Virus record (IMG/VR): IMGVR_UViG_3300038465_000205 | Span: 1 to 21,516 of that record | Strand: one strand, 5' to 3' | From: a virus | DNA length: 21,516 bases | Part shown: piece by piece, positions 2,347 through 21,516 of the stretch | Layout: each line of letters begins with the position of its first letter | Position numbering within the stretch: the first letter of the stretch is position 1 | The notes under the pieces: model-generated | The model's input: the letters and a program-made list of their open reading frames with translations, nothing else | The model's database searches: none | Told to the model about the DNA's origin: nothing | Made by a program: the position numbers and the translations under genes

Positions 2347-3524
2347 GTACGTCGATTACTGAACCATTTTACGGGCTGTACAAAGGACTTGTTGTAAACA
2401 ACAAGGATCCTGAAGGGCTCGGGCGCGTCACTGCCACTATTCCTCAAGTGTTTGGGAATAATACGACGGCTTCGGCATGGGCATTCCCTTGTGTCCCTGT
2501 TGGCTATCCCGGGAGTTTTCTTCCAGTTCCCAACAGCGGTGTATGGATCATGTTCGAAGGGGGTGATGTTGATTACCCCATTTGGGGTGGTACTTGGCAG
2601 GAGTCGGCCACATCGACCACGACCATCAACTATGGGTCGACGACCGTTCCAGTCATTTCGTCAGGAGTTGTGACCACCGGCACGTATATTCTTGTCGATC
2701 CTAATGGGACTGGAGAAGCAGGCATTGGATTTAAGTTTTCAAAAAATGCGACGGACGGTGCTAATGCATATCCCGTTTATGACGACAACGGCGTTTTTAT
2801 TGGAGGTGTTGGATCGACTGGTGGATATAAGGTCCAGGGTGATCGTATTCAGGTCACTCCTAATATCTACTTTGGTCCCTTTCTCGGGTTAGATGGGCAG
2901 ACGAATCCTCCCTCTATCATTATGCCTGGTCCTGATTATGGAGGTAGTCGGATTTGGTTTTTCCAGGGGACTCCAGCAGTTGGTTGGGTTTCTGGCGTTA
3001 CTCAGGTTGGTGATCTTGGCTATAACATGGTCACATTTCAATGGATGACGTGCACTGTTTCAGGTGGAGGTCTTTCAGCAGGGACCTGGGTCAACGGATT
3101 TGGGATTAATCAAATCGGCAAGCAGGTTGCTTATGATCCAGTGACCTTCTTTTATGCATGTACATGCGCTGTTGCTAATACATGGTATCCGGCAGGGTTG
3201 AATACTGGAGGGGCACCTACTGTCACACTCCCTGACGATGGCCGATTTTATAAGGTTGAATGGACGGGCCCATGGTGGAACTGTTCGACGAATAATCTGC
3301 TGTGTGCAGCGGCTTTGGGGACTTCAACATCGAACATTATTGCCAATACATATATGGAGGTTAACAGTTTTAATCAAGGATTTGTTCCGGTTATTATTCC
3401 TCAGATTACCGGCTCTGGTCAAACGATTGGTTGTTATACCCTCTGTGGTAATGGCACACCCACCATTACGTTTGGCGCTGGTTCTACTGGTCCGTCCACT
3501 CTTGCTGCTTACTGCGTAGGCTGA
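2343..3524 (+). CDS. Baseplate central spike, gp5/VgrG-type OB-fold protein
   Basis: The start is taken at the ATG at 2343, which overlaps the hub stop as ATGA, rather than an in-frame codon 15 bases upstream. This gives 393 residues. Residues about 8-90 are a gp5-type OB fold: 'YGLYKGLVVNNKDPEGLGRV', then a 'CVPVGYPGSFLPVPNSGVWIMFEGGDVDYPIWGG' region, whose segments are hallmarks of spike and VgrG proteins. No T4-like lysozyme insertion and no obvious triple-stranded beta-helix repeats follow. The remaining ~240 residues are a Gly/Thr/aromatic-rich region with eight cysteines clustered in the last ~160, visibly richer in A+T than the flanking tail genes. This part may be a swapped-in tip or fibre-like domain. 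The N-terminal assignment is firm; the C-terminal function is unknown. Confidence 0.72.
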   Translation: MSTSITEPFYGLYKGLVVNNKDPEGLGRVTATIPQVFGNNTTASAWAFPCVPVGYPGSFLPVPNSGVWIMFEGGDVDYPIWGGTWQESATSTTTINYGSTTVPVISSGVVTTGTYILVDPNGTGEAGIGFKFSKNATDGANAYPVYDDNGVFIGGVGSTGGYKVQGDRIQVTPNIYFGPFLGLDGQTNPPSIIMPGPDYGGSRIWFFQGTPAVGWVSGVTQVGDLGYNMVTFQWMTCTVSGGGLSAGTWVNGFGINQIGKQVAYDPVTFFYACTCAVANTWYPAGLNTGGAPTVTLPDDGRFYKVEWTGPWWNCSTNNLLCAAALGTSTSNIIANTYMEVNSFNQGFVPVIIPQITGSGQTIGCYTLCGNGTPTITFGAGSTGPSTLAAYCVG

Positions 3525-12827: not shown

Positions 12828-13109
12828 GTGGTCCTTCTCCTGTGCGGATTTGCCTGTTTCTTCGTGGTTCAGGTCTTCAAGCTGATCCTTGCTCCCAGGA
12901 CCATAGGAACATTAGCTAAGATTTTTTTAGCAGCCGTGGGCTCATTTGGTACCGCAGCTATTATATTTCCGCATCGGCCCTCTGAACTGGTTGTTTATGG
13001 AGCTGCAGGGGTTGGATTAAACACGATTTTGGATTGTTTTGCTCGTTTTTTCTTTGTAGCAGCGGACTGGATTGTCCAAGATATCGTCCGAAAGACCCCT
13101 CGAAGGTGA
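12828..13109 (+). CDS. Small membrane protein, possibly holin-like
   Basis: A 93-residue protein with a GTG start at 12828. Hydrophobic stretches at about residues 1-21, 29-47 and 54-76 suggest two or three membrane segments. A charged C-terminal tail ('DIVRKTPRR') would stay in the cytoplasm. Size and topology fit a phage holin, but no endolysin gene is in the window and the sequence matches no holin family I recognise. It could equally be an unrelated phage membrane protein. The ribosome-binding site is weak, a GGGG about 13 bases upstream inside a possible hairpin, so translation may be low or controlled. It is the last gene before the first sizeable intergenic gap. Confidence 0.5.
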   Translation: MVLLLCGFACFFVVQVFKLILAPRTIGTLAKIFLAAVGSFGTAAIIFPHRPSELVVYGAAGVGLNTILDCFARFFFVAADWIVQDIVRKTPRR

Positions 13110-13117
13110 TTTTGAGG

Positions 13118-13147
13118 TTGACGGCCTAGTTTGGATCTGATTATCCT
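13118..13147 (+). promoter_or_regulatory. Probable sigma70-type promoter for the charge-block gene
   Basis: TTGACG at 13118-13123 and TATCCT at 13142-13147 are separated by 18 bases. Transcription would start near 13154 and give a leader of about 150 bases before the GTG at 13303. The spacing is the same as in the stronger promoter at 19599-19628. Confidence 0.5.
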
Positions 13148-13218
13148 TGGGTAGGTAAAAAGTTCTCATTCGTCCCGATGCTGGTCCTTCGCACGGTTCC
13201 CGCCGCAGGGAGCGGATG

Positions 13219-13284
13219 ATGGAGATGGAGGGGAGAGGCCTGAATGTCCAGCGTGCAGGCCTCTCCCGCTCCATTACTGATTAA
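13219..13284 (+). CDS. Possible leader peptide (21 codons) upstream of the charge-block gene
   Basis: An ATG at 13219 (another in frame at 13216) opens a 21-codon frame ending in TAA at 13282-13284. AGGGAG at 13207-13212 is a good ribosome-binding site, six bases before the ATG at 13219. The frame runs through the whole perfect hairpin at 13231-13267, and its stop codon touches the GGGAGAGGC that serves as the Shine-Dalgarno region of the next gene. A ribosome that translates this frame would open the hairpin and stop beside that site. Short open frames arise by chance, so the case rests on this arrangement and not on the peptide, which resembles nothing I know. Confidence 0.35.
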   Translation: MEMEGRGLNVQRAGLSRSITD

Positions 13285-13293
13285 GGGAGAGGC
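13231..13293 (+). promoter_or_regulatory. Alternative-stem leader (candidate RNA switch)
   Basis: GGGAGAGGCCTG (13231-13242) pairs perfectly with CAGGCCTCTCCC (13256-13267), a 12-bp stem with a 13-base loop. The right arm can instead pair over nine bases (GCCTCTCCC, 13259-13267) with a second GGGAGAGGC at 13285-13293, which is the Shine-Dalgarno region of the GTG at 13303. The two stems exclude each other. When the first forms, the ribosome site is free; when the second forms, it is masked. No run of T follows either stem, so control of translation is more likely than intrinsic termination. Confidence 0.5.
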
Positions 13294-13302
13294 AGGGAAT
13301 AG

Positions 13303-14682
13303 GTGGCTTCAGGCTTGGCTTTGATTTCAGGAACTCCGGGCTCATCTTTGGTTTTGGGCTTTTTCGGGAAAGAGTCGGTACACCGTAGAAACGCTGAAGC
13401 ACTATTAGAAGATTTCATCCGGGCTTACCATCGGAATAACAAGGGTGCCAAGGTTCGTTTTATCTTGGCGATCCCTGACGAGGGATTTACCGACACCCTA
13501 GAAGAACTCGCCGATTACGCCATTACGTCTGATTATCAAATCGGACTAGTCGGCCATCCTTCAGCTTTTGAAGACCCACGTGTTCAGCAGTATGTCGAGC
13601 AGGCTCGCGGATCTTTATGTGAGCTTTCCAAGCAAAACTCTCTAGCCCAAGGCATGGTCAACTTCCTTGGTGCTTATAAGTCTTTTTCTGATGTGAAGCT
13701 CATTCTCCTCGCTAATCCCGCAGAGGATGATTTGGCGTATATTGCGGTCGAAGTGGCGATGGGGAAAGATATTTCGGTACGCTCGCTCCTCAACGGCCTC
13801 GATATGGTTACAGTTACCCCACCCGAAAACGAAGAACAGGAGCAAATCCACATGGCCCCACGCCCCATTGAAGAAGAAGAGGAACTCGAAGAGGAGATCG
13901 AGGACGAAGAGGACGAGGAGATCGAGGACGAAGAGGAACCCGAGGACGAGGAGTTTGAGTCCGCAGAAGTAGATGAAGACGAGGACGAAGACGCCGAGGT
14001 CGAGGAAGAGGACGAAGAGGCAGACGAGGAAGAGGACGAAGAAGAGGTCGAAGAAGAGGACGCCGACGTCGAAGAGGCAGAAGAGGAAGAGTACGACGAG
14101 GAAGACGTCGAAGAGGCCGAAGAGGAAGAGGTCGAAGAGGAGGACCTCGACGAGGAAGTTCCCGAAGAGGAAGAAGAAGTCGACGACGACGAAGACGTCG
14201 AGGAAGAAGAGGAAGAAGAAGTGCCACCAGTGAAGAAGGCCCCGGCAGCAAAGAAGGCGGCGCCCACGATTAAGCGCCCTCCGGCCATGACGCAGCACGC
14301 TCTCACAGAGCTGGCCAACCGTGACAAGCAAGCGTTTTACACTCTCGCTCGCAAATACAAGTACCAGGGCAAGACGATCCGCCCCGGCCGCGGCATGAAG
14401 GTCTCCATGATGGTGAACCGGATCCTCGAAGCTGCGGGCAAGCCCGTTCCACCTCCGGCCCCGAGAGTGGCAAAGAAGACCCCGGCGAAGAAGGTGGCGG
14501 CAACGAAGAAGGCAGCGCCTGCACGGGCCGCAGCACCGGTCAAGAAGGCGGGGAAGGTGGCAGCGGCCAAGAAGCCCGCTCGGACGGCCCCAGCACCGGC
14601 TGCGGGGTCCTCGACGACGCAGCTGCGCAGGGCGGCAATCAAGGCCGCACGCGTGTTCCTTGAGTACGCTGAAGCGCTTTAA
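13303..14682 (+). CDS. Charge-block protein: alpha/beta domain, acidic region, H1-like basic tail
   Basis: A 459-residue protein with a GTG start preceded by GGGAGAGG and AGGGA. Residues 1-172 look like one alpha/beta (Rossmann-like) domain ('LALISGTPGSSLVLGFFG', 'VRFILAIPDEG', 'VKLILLANPAEDDLAYIAVE') of a family I cannot name. Residues 188-310 contain no Lys or Arg and are mostly Glu/Asp. A Lys-rich hinge (311-324) leads to a small helical domain (325-380, with 'IRPGRGMKVSMMVNRILEAAG'). Next comes a Lys/Ala/Pro tail (381-435) like histone H1 or actinobacterial HU tails, and then a final amphipathic helix. A role in DNA or nucleoid binding, DNA mimicry or condensate formation is possible. Function is unknown. 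It has its own promoter and leader, separate from the tail and replication operons. Confidence 0.85.
   Translation: MASGLALISGTPGSSLVLGFFGKESVHRRNAEALLEDFIRAYHRNNKGAKVRFILAIPDEGFTDTLEELADYAITSDYQIGLVGHPSAFEDPRVQQYVEQARGSLCELSKQNSLAQGMVNFLGAYKSFSDVKLILLANPAEDDLAYIAVEVAMGKDISVRSLLNGLDMVTVTPPENEEQEQIHMAPRPIEEEEELEEEIEDEEDEEIEDEEEPEDEEFESAEVDEDEDEDAEVEEEDEEADEEEDEEEVEEEDADVEEAEEEEYDEEDVEEAEEEEVEEEDLDEEVPEEEEEVDDDEDVEEEEEEEVPPVKKAPAAKKAAPTIKRPPAMTQHALTELANRDKQAFYTLARKYKYQGKTIRPGRGMKVSMMVNRILEAAGKPVPPPAPRVAKKTPAKKVAATKKAAPARAAAPVKKAGKVAAAKKPARTAPAPAAGSSTTQLRRAAIKAARVFLEYAEAL
13867..14221 (+). repeat. Purine-rich low-complexity tract coding for Glu/Asp runs
   Basis: About 355 bases of imperfect GAAGAGGAC-type units, almost free of T on the + strand. 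The tract encodes the acidic block of the gene at 13303. It is prone to slippage and length variation, although mixed GAA/GAG/GAC codon use suggests that selection acts on protein charge and not on the DNA repeat. Confidence 0.8.
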
Positions 14683-14756: not shown

Positions 14757-14785
14757 TTGCACTCATCCATCACCCACACTACGGT
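14757..14785 (+). promoter_or_regulatory. Possible promoter of the replication operon
   Basis: TTGCAC at 14757-14762 and TACGGT at 14780-14785 are spaced by 17 bases. Each keeps three of the key consensus bases (TTG; TA...T). It is the best candidate in the 206-base gap before the loader gene, but weaker than the promoters at 13118 and 19599. Confidence 0.35.
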
Positions 14786-14789
14786 TTGG

Positions 14790-14825
14790 CCCTCTCCGGT
14801 ATGGCCGGTGGGACTCCTCAGAGGG
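14790..14825 (+). promoter_or_regulatory. Inverted repeat that could mask a ribosome-binding site
   Basis: CCCTCT (14790-14795) is complementary to AGAGGG (14820-14825), and two CCGG palindromes (14796-14799 and 14805-14808) could form a small inner stem. The right arm is part of GAGGGAGAA, the Shine-Dalgarno sequence of the 18-codon ORF at 14833. If transcription starts near 14792, part of the left arm would be missing from the RNA. Confidence 0.3.
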
Positions 14826-14832
14826 AGAACAG

Positions 14833-14889
14833 ATGGAACCGTGCCCTGGTACATTCGTGGCTTTTTACGCCCAAAAGTCGGTTTTCTAA
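14833..14889 (+). CDS. 18-codon leader ORF coupled to the helicase-loader gene
   Basis: The ATG at 14833 lies seven bases after a strong GAGGGAG (14821-14827). It opens the peptide MEPCPGTFVAFYAQKSVF, ending in TAA at 14887-14889, whose last base starts the loader ATG (TAATG). The loader ATG has no ribosome-binding site of its own ('gtcggttttcta'), so its translation would depend on ribosomes finishing this small frame. The same TAATG coupling joins many other genes here. The peptide may have no function of its own. This reading also explains why the longer upstream extension of the loader frame, from a TTG at 14757, is unlikely. Confidence 0.5.
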   Translation: MEPCPGTFVAFYAQKSVF

Positions 14890-15539
14890 TGACCGACGTC
14901 CTCTTGTCCTCGACGAACATTCCAGCCTCATTCAGTGACACGCTCTTCAGGGATTACGACGTAAAGCGCCGCCCAGGGGCGAAGAGTATCCTCCGCAAGA
15001 TCGATGCATGGGATCCGACAGTGAGTAAACCCGGACTGTTACTCCAGGGCATTCCCGGCGTCGGAAAGACAATGCTCGCCTCGGCCCTTCTCAATGAGTA
15101 TCATGAAGGCTACGGGCTCGCTGGATGGACCGCCGACAACATACCGAGTGCCGCTCTCTTGGCCCTCCTTCAAGAGAAGTGCCCTGTCTATTTTATTCAG
15201 CTTGCCGAACTGATCAATCTCAACATCCGGCGCTTCCGACTGGCGGCCGATATCGATAAAGGGATTCGAGACCCTCAGGAGTATCTCGATCTCGATCATC
15301 TTCTCGAAGATCTCAAACACCGCGTGAAGGTCCTTGTAATCGACGACGTCGGCAAAGAGCACCACACCAACAGTGGCTTTGCACAAGACGAGTTCGATCT
15401 TCTCGTCCGCACACGTCACAACGCCGGGTTCACGACGATCTATACAACGAACATTCCATTACGAAGGTGGGGGGACGAATACTCCGAATCGATGCAGTCT
15501 CTTATTGAGCGGTCGTCCTTGGTTCTTGATTTCCCCTAG
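14889..15539 (+). CDS. DnaC/IstB-like AAA+ helicase loader
   Basis: A 216-residue ATPase. It has Walker A 'GIPGVGKT' (54-61), Walker B 'VLVIDDVG' (148-155), sensor-1 'IYTTN' (184-188) and an arginine 'IERSS' (R208) near the end, the layout of DnaC/DnaI-type proteins. These load the replicative helicase onto phage DNA by using ATP to open the DnaB ring. No N-terminal zinc finger is present, and the N-terminal ~30 residues are the likely helicase-contact region. The start at 14889 is chosen because the preceding 18-codon ORF ends in TAATG there. An in-frame TTG at 14757 would add an unconvincing 44 residues. It is first in the replication operon, three genes ahead of the primase. Confidence 0.75.
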   Translation: MTDVLLSSTNIPASFSDTLFRDYDVKRRPGAKSILRKIDAWDPTVSKPGLLLQGIPGVGKTMLASALLNEYHEGYGLAGWTADNIPSAALLALLQEKCPVYFIQLAELINLNIRRFRLAADIDKGIRDPQEYLDLDHLLEDLKHRVKVLVIDDVGKEHHTNSGFAQDEFDLLVRTRHNAGFTTIYTTNIPLRRWGDEYSESMQSLIERSSLVLDFP

Positions 15540-19581: not shown

Positions 19582-19617
19582 CCTCGTATTTCGAATGCTT
19601 GACACACCCGAGGTCTA
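19571..19617 (+). promoter_or_regulatory. Operator-like inverted and direct repeats around a promoter
   Basis: TAGACCTC (19571-19578) and GAGGTCTA (19610-19617) are perfect inverted copies flanking the -35 box. GACCTC occurs twice in direct orientation (19573-19578, 19580-19585), and TCTAG twice (19614-19618, 19621-19625), the second touching the -10 box. The left arm lies across the SNF2 stop codon. The layout suggests binding sites for a regulator. Confidence 0.4.
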
Positions 19618-19628
19618 GCATCTAGATT
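19599..19628 (+). promoter_or_regulatory. Strong sigma70-type promoter
   Basis: A consensus TTGACA at 19599-19604 and TAGATT at 19623-19628 are separated by 18 bases. Transcription would start near 19635, about 40 bases before the ATG at 19675. It is the best promoter match in the window and would drive the block of small genes. Confidence 0.65.
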
Positions 19629-21187: not shown

Positions 21188-21516
21188 ATGCCAGAAGTCC
21201 GCCGTCGCCGCGTCGCAGCCACCAAGCCCGTTTCCCGCCGCCGGGATCGAGCCGCCGAGGTCGAAGAGGACGAAGACGAACTCGAAGACGAAGACACAGA
21301 TGCCGCTGCTGCGCCGGTGAGAGCGAGGCGGACCACCAAGAAGGCCGCTACCCGCCGACGTCCGCCCGTTGAAGATGAGGACGAGGACGCGGAAGAGGAC
21401 GAAGAAGAGGAAGACGAGGAGGGGGAAGAAGAGGATGAAGACGAAGAGGAGGCTCCCGCCCCGCGTGCTCGCCGCCGTCGCCCTCGCCCAGACGACGATG
21501 AGGAAGAAGAGGAAGA
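21188..21516 (+). CDS. Second charge-block protein (N-terminal part, runs off the window)
   Basis: An ATG at 21188 follows GAGAGGA (21172-21178). The 109 codons visible stay open to the window end. The protein alternates short basic and acidic blocks: 'MPEVRRRRVAATKPVSRRR', an acidic run at ~24-37, a basic block 'RARRTTKKAATRRRP', a longer acidic run (~63-91), 'APRARRRRPRP', and then acidic again. No folded domain is visible. It shares the acidic/basic design with the protein at 13303 but uses Arg more and lacks an N-terminal globular domain in the part seen. Such a polyampholyte may bind DNA or RNA, or act with the first charge-block protein. Confidence 0.75.
   Translation, partial: MPEVRRRRVAATKPVSRRRDRAAEVEEDEDELEDEDTDAAAAPVRARRTTKKAATRRRPPVEDEDEDAEEDEEEEDEEGEEEDEDEEEAPAPRARRRRPRPDDDEEEEE
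21257..21516 (+). repeat. Purine-rich low-complexity tract
   Basis: GAAGAGGAC-type units like those at 13867-14221, broken by CGC-rich Arg codons. The tract encodes the alternating acidic and basic blocks of the gene at 21188 and continues past the window. Confidence 0.6.

Follow-up and report, generated by a model that had tools for sequence, protein, structure and literature searches.

What does the structured leader do that lies in front of the acidic 459-aa protein gene of a tailed phage? The DNA analysed is a genome fragment from a virus record of 21.5 kb (the window, 21,516 nt), in which tail/baseplate genes and a 93-aa membrane protein gene are followed by the leader, the acidic gene and then the replication genes, in the order DnaC-like helicase loader, DnaB, primase and SNF2-type helicase (Table 1). 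A preliminary description of this one genome read the leader as a translational attenuator controlling the acidic gene. That it is a regulatory 5' leader has been borne out: its layout and its hairpin are conserved in related phages, and the start of transcription very probably lies 5' of the hairpin, at a conserved promoter. Its likely target is another matter. How phages of what are probably actinobacteria time their replication genes after transcription has been little explored, and a candidate attenuator read off a single genome gains a different meaning once it is compared with its homologues.

Table 1 Features of the locus (positions in the window unless a relative is named)
Feature	Position	Strand	Basis or remark
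93-aa membrane protein gene, closing the structural block	12828..13109	+	ORF; counterpart in L006 and L089
Promoter P1, TTGACG-18-TATCCT	13118..13147	+	Matching promoter type at equivalent place in relatives
Predicted leader RNA, ~120 nt: domain 1 of lower stability, then strong hairpin	13154..13273	+	Promoter position, folds
Conserved leader motif CTTCGCACGGTTCC (family consensus YTTYGCAGGGRYTC); pairing core 13191-13200	13187..13200	+	Block search, complement
21-codon frame, formerly proposed leader ORF	13219..13284	+	Not conserved
Strong hairpin	13226..13273	+	-36.9 kcal/mol; z -7.0; 0/500 shuffles
Third copy of GGGAGAGGC, could pair with 13259-13267; this phage only	13285..13293	+	Copy count, shuffles
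459-aa protein: SLOG-like Rossmann N-domain, Asp/Glu block, Lys/Ala-rich tail	13303..14682	+	ORF, model
Promoter P2 of replication operon, TTGCAC-17-TACGGT	14757..14785	+	Conserved promoter in relatives
Mini-ORF MEPCPGTFVAFYAQKSVF; stop TAA overlaps loader ATG (TAATG)	14833..14889	+	SD GAGGGAG at 14821-14827
Partner site GGAACCGTGC, in mini-ORF codons 1-4	14835..14844	+	Exact complement of 13191-13200
DnaC-like helicase loader, without SD of its own	14889..15539	+	phrog_50, E 6.9e-21; start context
Partner site GAGTCCCTGCAAA	L006 4768		Exact complement
Partner site GAATCCCTGC	L089 5179		Exact complement
Partner site GAACCCCTGCGA	L172 4456		Exact complement
Partner site TGAATCCCTGC	L173 4460		Exact complement

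Related phages and a shared leader layout

When the acidic gene, DnaB and the leader were used directly as queries, DNA and protein searches gave no close match; a DnaB profile scan returned only the record already known and a search of genome contigs yielded no usable leader relative. Relatives were found by profile scans built from the SNF2-type helicase and the loader. These identified the same gene order in L006 (whose helicase is 63% identical to that of the window), L089, L172 and L173, with L087 and L007 being more distant. L089 was counted once, records L168-L170 being identical, and five distinct phages were compared: the window, L006, L089, L172 and L173.

All five share one layout, in which a membrane protein gene (small and at the equivalent position in L006 and L089) is followed directly by a TTGAC-17/18-TAnnnT promoter, a leader of ~133-154 nt with a strong hairpin, and the acidic SLOG-like gene, which starts 24-37 nt beyond the end of the hairpin. 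The P1-type promoter reads TTGAC-17-TAGGGT in L006 and L089 and ends in TAGTGT in L172 and TAGCTT in L173; the main start of L173 is the GTG at 3022, and only its values for hairpin and leader ORF are off by one base. Leader hairpins were not found in the wider family, where the SLOG-like gene mostly adjoins the membrane gene directly; the gap is ~40 nt in Streptomyces phage BRock and its relatives. L087 has the acidic gene and no leader. The nearest phages with a name, judged by the helicase, are Streptomyces phages and the relatives carry genes that by eye are WhiB-like, which makes an actinobacterial host likely for the window phage.

The N-terminal domain of the acidic protein (13303-13860) belongs to a conserved family with ~30 members at this genome position. 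Its structural model (pLDDT 91) is similar to SLOG-type domains found in other phage proteins (Foldseek E 8e-9 to 1e-3), with no convincing match in the PDB. The modelled fold is of Rossmann type and resembles the SLOG domains of YspA/cpYpsA, and a Streptomyces phage BRock protein is among its fold matches.

A conserved hairpin in the leader

The upstream hairpin of the preliminary description was confirmed by folding: the 60-nt stretch that holds it ranks first in stability of 2146 in the record (-40.5 vs a mean of -13.9, s.d. 4.4). A strong hairpin occupies the equivalent place in all four relatives, with z between -3.4 and -7.0 across the five phages, and the hairpin sequences differ between phages while each is self-complementary. 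Domain 1, which precedes it, is just slightly more stable than shuffled sequences, and its outer stems were out of register in a MAFFT alignment of the leaders. Rfam 15 covariance models gave no match above the gathering threshold in the window and chance-level matches only near the leader.

No intrinsic terminator was called on the + strand between 12700 and 14700 and no U-run follows the stem, the sequence there being TTACTGATTA. Because the leader hairpins lack U-tracts, termination at them is uncertain; the hairpin of the window is probably the 3' stem-loop of the leader RNA, serving as a U-less terminator or as a stabiliser.

A leader motif and its complement in the next operon

A block search identified the YTTYGCAGGGRYTC block between promoter and hairpin in all five leaders (0/100 shuffled sets score as high), the window variant CTTCGCACGGTTCC being the most divergent of the five. 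The preliminary description had been right to place a regulatory element in this leader but had put it too far 3' and tied it to the ribosome-binding site (RBS) of the acidic gene, whereas the conserved block points to the next operon. The exact complement of its core lies ~1.5 kb downstream of the motif, beyond the acidic gene and within the leader of the loader/DnaB/primase operon, and each relative has such a partner (Table 1). The longest exact complement between the two leaders measures 10 nt in the window, 13 in L006, 10 in L089, 12 in L172 and 11 in L173, and each of these lengths is reached by at most two of 300 shuffles.

Over the 10-nt core of the five phages all 50 cells are paired, four of the ten pairs having changed on both sides and none being broken. 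This co-variation is matched in 0/500 shuffles and collapses in every slid register. Searched against the whole locus of each phage, the motif has its longest complement at the partner (in L089 a second start site equals it) and, reciprocally, the longest exact complement that the 41-nt mini-ORF start region finds is the leader motif in 5/5. The orientation is complementary throughout the five, and the gene strand of the 101-kb L089-type record contains just two occurrences of the complement, each at a translation start. The more distant L007 has a GCAGGGATCC motif with a complement of just 8 nt (28/300 shuffles, not significant), and L087, which has the gene without the leader, shows no motif-partner pair. 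Once the cost of opening both sites is counted, the predicted net energy of pairing lies between -6 and -12 kcal/mol in each of the five phages; the window motif is predicted to be mostly paired inside its own leader (P unpaired 0.02). We regard the complementarity of motif and partner as solid, and infer from it a pairing of RNAs rather than a pair of DNA operators.

In four leaders UUYG overlaps the core at its 5' edge and fits the YUNR U-turn pattern that is common in antisense recognition loops (PMC4485353), which is only suggestive of a recognition feature.

L089 carries a second exact 10-nt complement at 14066-14079, between the SD (AAAGGAG) and the ATG of a gene for a 359-aa acidic protein with a part that by eye is SSB-like. 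The homologous gene at 21188 in the window does not carry the complement. This ORF (21188-21516) is truncated by the end of the window, has a strongly acidic/Arg-rich N-terminus (MPEVRRRR...) and is an apparent homologue of the L089 SSB-like protein.

The partner mostly lies on a mini-ORF that overlaps the loader start

The replication operon has a conserved promoter of its own, TTGnnn-17/18-TAC[CG][GT]T being found at the equivalent place in all five phages. In the window the partner runs from the last base of a mini-ORF start codon to the end of codon 4, and in the window, L089, L172 and L173 alike it coincides with the NTG and codons 2-4 of such an ORF preceded by a good SD. The four mini-peptides begin MEPC..., MNPC..., VNPC... 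and LNPC... and are not conserved across all four beyond the paired codons. In L006 the 13-nt complement is kept, but SD and start codon are both missing at that place. Since the peptides diverge past the paired codons and L006 is without the start codon, what counts seems to be the nucleotide sequence and not the peptide it encodes. In the four phages with a mini-ORF, its stop codon overlaps the start of the loader gene, reading TAATG in the window, GTGA in L089 and L173 and ATGGCTGA in L172, and the loader lacks an SD of its own in the window, L089 and L172.

A possible antisense RNA acting on the replication operon

Promoter-like sites, a strong hairpin, an exact co-varying complementarity and the mini-ORF/loader overlap are all present in the DNA. 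The exact co-evolving complement suggests a base-pairing RNA switch rather than a ribosome-stalling attenuator, and we consider it rather probable that translation of the replication operon is controlled by a leader-derived antisense RNA of which the hairpin is the 3' stem. Transcription from P1 would yield a leader RNA of ~120 nt ending in the hairpin, and its core would pair in trans with GGAACCGTGC at the head of the loader/DnaB/primase/helicase operon. Such pairing would be repressive, barring ribosome entry at the mini-ORF and lowering loader translation through coupling, because in the window the mini-ORF stop overlaps the start of a loader gene that has no SD. The hairpin would form the 3' end of the RNA, either by U-less termination or by processing that frees a small RNA, or would at least protect it, and read-through past the hairpin would give the mRNA of the acidic protein. 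Termination at the hairpin is possible, U-less terminators having been reported for phiC31 and mycobacteria (cited in PMC8355165 and PMC12288462).

More tentatively, the leader-derived RNA may act in trans on several translation starts, that of the loader mini-ORF and in L089 also that of the SSB-like gene, and may couple synthesis of the acidic SLOG-like protein with repression of the replication module. We know of no description of such an RNA timing switch for lytic-cycle genes of actinophages. Because compensatory changes are seen in five phages between leaders 1.5 kb apart, a base-pairing switch on the replicative helicase loader could be tested with a few point mutations.

Alternative explanations

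The preliminary description had proposed an erm/cat-type attenuator, in which 13259-13267 either pairs with 13231-13239 or masks 13285-13293, the SD region of the GTG at 13303, depending on the movement of a ribosome on a leader ORF. Its components are in the window as described: GGGAGAGGC occurs at 13231-13239 and 13285-13293, with the complement at 13259-13267 (the three being the only copies in 21.5 kb, against 0.23 expected and 0/100 shuffles reaching three), and the 21-codon frame is preceded by AGGGAG at 13207-13212, an in-frame ATG at 13216 extending it to 22 codons. The masking stem does form in constrained folding with the 5' arm held open, P unpaired of 13285-13293 falling to 0.00 when that arm is occupied, and the duplex of 3' arm and RBS (-21.6 kcal/mol) is modestly unusual, being reached by 11/500 shuffles. 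The upstream hairpin dominates otherwise, however: at -36.9 kcal/mol it is far more stable than the alternative stem at -17.5 kcal/mol, so that the latter would form only while the 5' arm is occupied. Although the downstream copy lies in the SD region, a second, independent SD-like AGGGA (13294-13298) sits just 3' of it, so masking need not silence the GTG, and since leader stop and start codon are 19 nt apart, a ribosome at the stop would cover the SD itself. In the relatives the gene and the hairpin are conserved but the masking copy and the leader ORF are not, and to that extent the refuting outcome set by the preliminary description has been found. RBS-masking pairing is no better there than in shuffles (equalled in 446/500 for L006, 475/500 for L089 and 235/500 for L007), and start codon, frame, length and stop vary among the leader ORFs, which encode no common peptide. 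We therefore consider the attenuator very improbable.

Less remote, if still unlikely, is that the motif and its inverted copy serve as a pair of DNA operators, one downstream of P1 and the other downstream of P2, read by one co-evolving phage regulator, with the hairpin an independent terminator or stabiliser. Both copies do lie a few dozen nt 3' of conserved promoters, co-variation within a genome would be expected of operators too and asymmetric start-associated repeats of unknown function occur in cluster K mycobacteriophages (PMC3203893). Against operators stands the complementary orientation in 5/5, with a single copy in the leader facing one or two complements in each genome, and the position of the partner on codons 1-4 and of the extra L089 copy between SD and ATG suits the blocking of ribosomes, not of RNA polymerase. 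It is distinctly improbable that the hairpin is the whole story, as a U-less terminator or attenuator, an insulator where the late genes meet the early ones or a stabiliser at the 5' end of the mRNA, with the long-range complementarity incidental. U-less terminators of the phiC31 early region (Ingham 1995, as cited in PMC8355165), the I-shaped terminators described for mycobacteria (PMC12288462), the strong hairpins, mostly without U-tracts, that relatives also have 3' of the acidic gene and the 24-37 nt between hairpin end and start codon in all five fit such a role. Full termination between promoter and gene would silence the gene, though, termination by U-less hairpins in mycobacteria is disputed (references in PMC8355165 and PMC12288462), and the co-varying motif would be left unexplained. 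As an account of the hairpin alone, a terminator or stabiliser is compatible with the antisense RNA.

Comparison with known systems

A close parallel to the proposed antisense RNA is plasmid R1, where CopA is complementary to the replication-gene leader, repA is translationally coupled to the mini-ORF tap and control consists in blocked tap translation (PMC5717011, PMC5883639). The phages likewise have a complement to a replication-gene leader, exact over 10-13 nt and with compensatory changes in five phages (a likeness of sequence), and, in the window, L089, L172 and L173 though not in L006, an SD-bearing mini-ORF whose stop overlaps the start of a replication gene. Unlike CopA, which is fully antisense and overlaps its target, the phage RNA would come from a separate leader ~1.5 kb upstream on the same strand and match over 10-13 nt; the target would be a phage helicase loader, with repression as the predicted effect. 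As the leader RNA is not transcribed antisense to its target, we see the locus as a variant of the CopA/tap/repA logic, not as a member.

The IsrK locus of the Gifsy-1 prophage has a single promoter with two products: a short regulatory RNA that stops at a terminator and pairs close to the start of an ORF lying upstream, and a longer mRNA made by read-through (PMC4825925). A similar short/long pair is proposed for the phage leader, but IsrK activates its own long isoform, whereas the partner here is a separate replication operon and the predicted effect repression. The SAS/ESAS elements of cluster K mycobacteriophages are also short, asymmetric conserved sequences at actinophage translation starts, some with inverted repeats upstream; their sequence differs, they number 11-19 (SAS) per genome and the accessible part of their description mentions no complementary leader (PMC3203893). 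The strong hairpin without poly-U recalls the U-less terminators of the phiC31 early region, reported under a title cited in PMC8355165, termination here being putative.

Further observations

GCAGGGA at 13205 was considered as a conserved string and replaced by the better-placed homologous block at 13187-13200 found in the block search; its reading as the SD of a conserved leader ORF was rejected, the leader ORFs being unrelated across relatives. In L172 (3064-3100) the RBS of the acidic gene forms the 3' arm of a separate strong hairpin (GGGATCCTTCTC/GGGGAGGAGGATCCC) adjoining the ATG.

Strong hairpins, mostly without U-tracts, lie directly 3' of the acidic gene in L006 (4668-4697), L089 (5037-5080), L007 (2006-2048) and L087 (3350-3396), and are possible terminators of a single-gene transcription unit. 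Elsewhere in the genome of the L006 phage (L164, 300-620), the same type of promoter, TTGACA-17-TAGGGT, precedes a long AG-rich, apparently non-coding stretch that ends in a hairpin. Directly past the SNF2-type helicase gene of the window is a promoter-like TTGACA-18-TAGATT (19599-19628), the L007 equivalent of which is TTGACA-17-TAGGGT.
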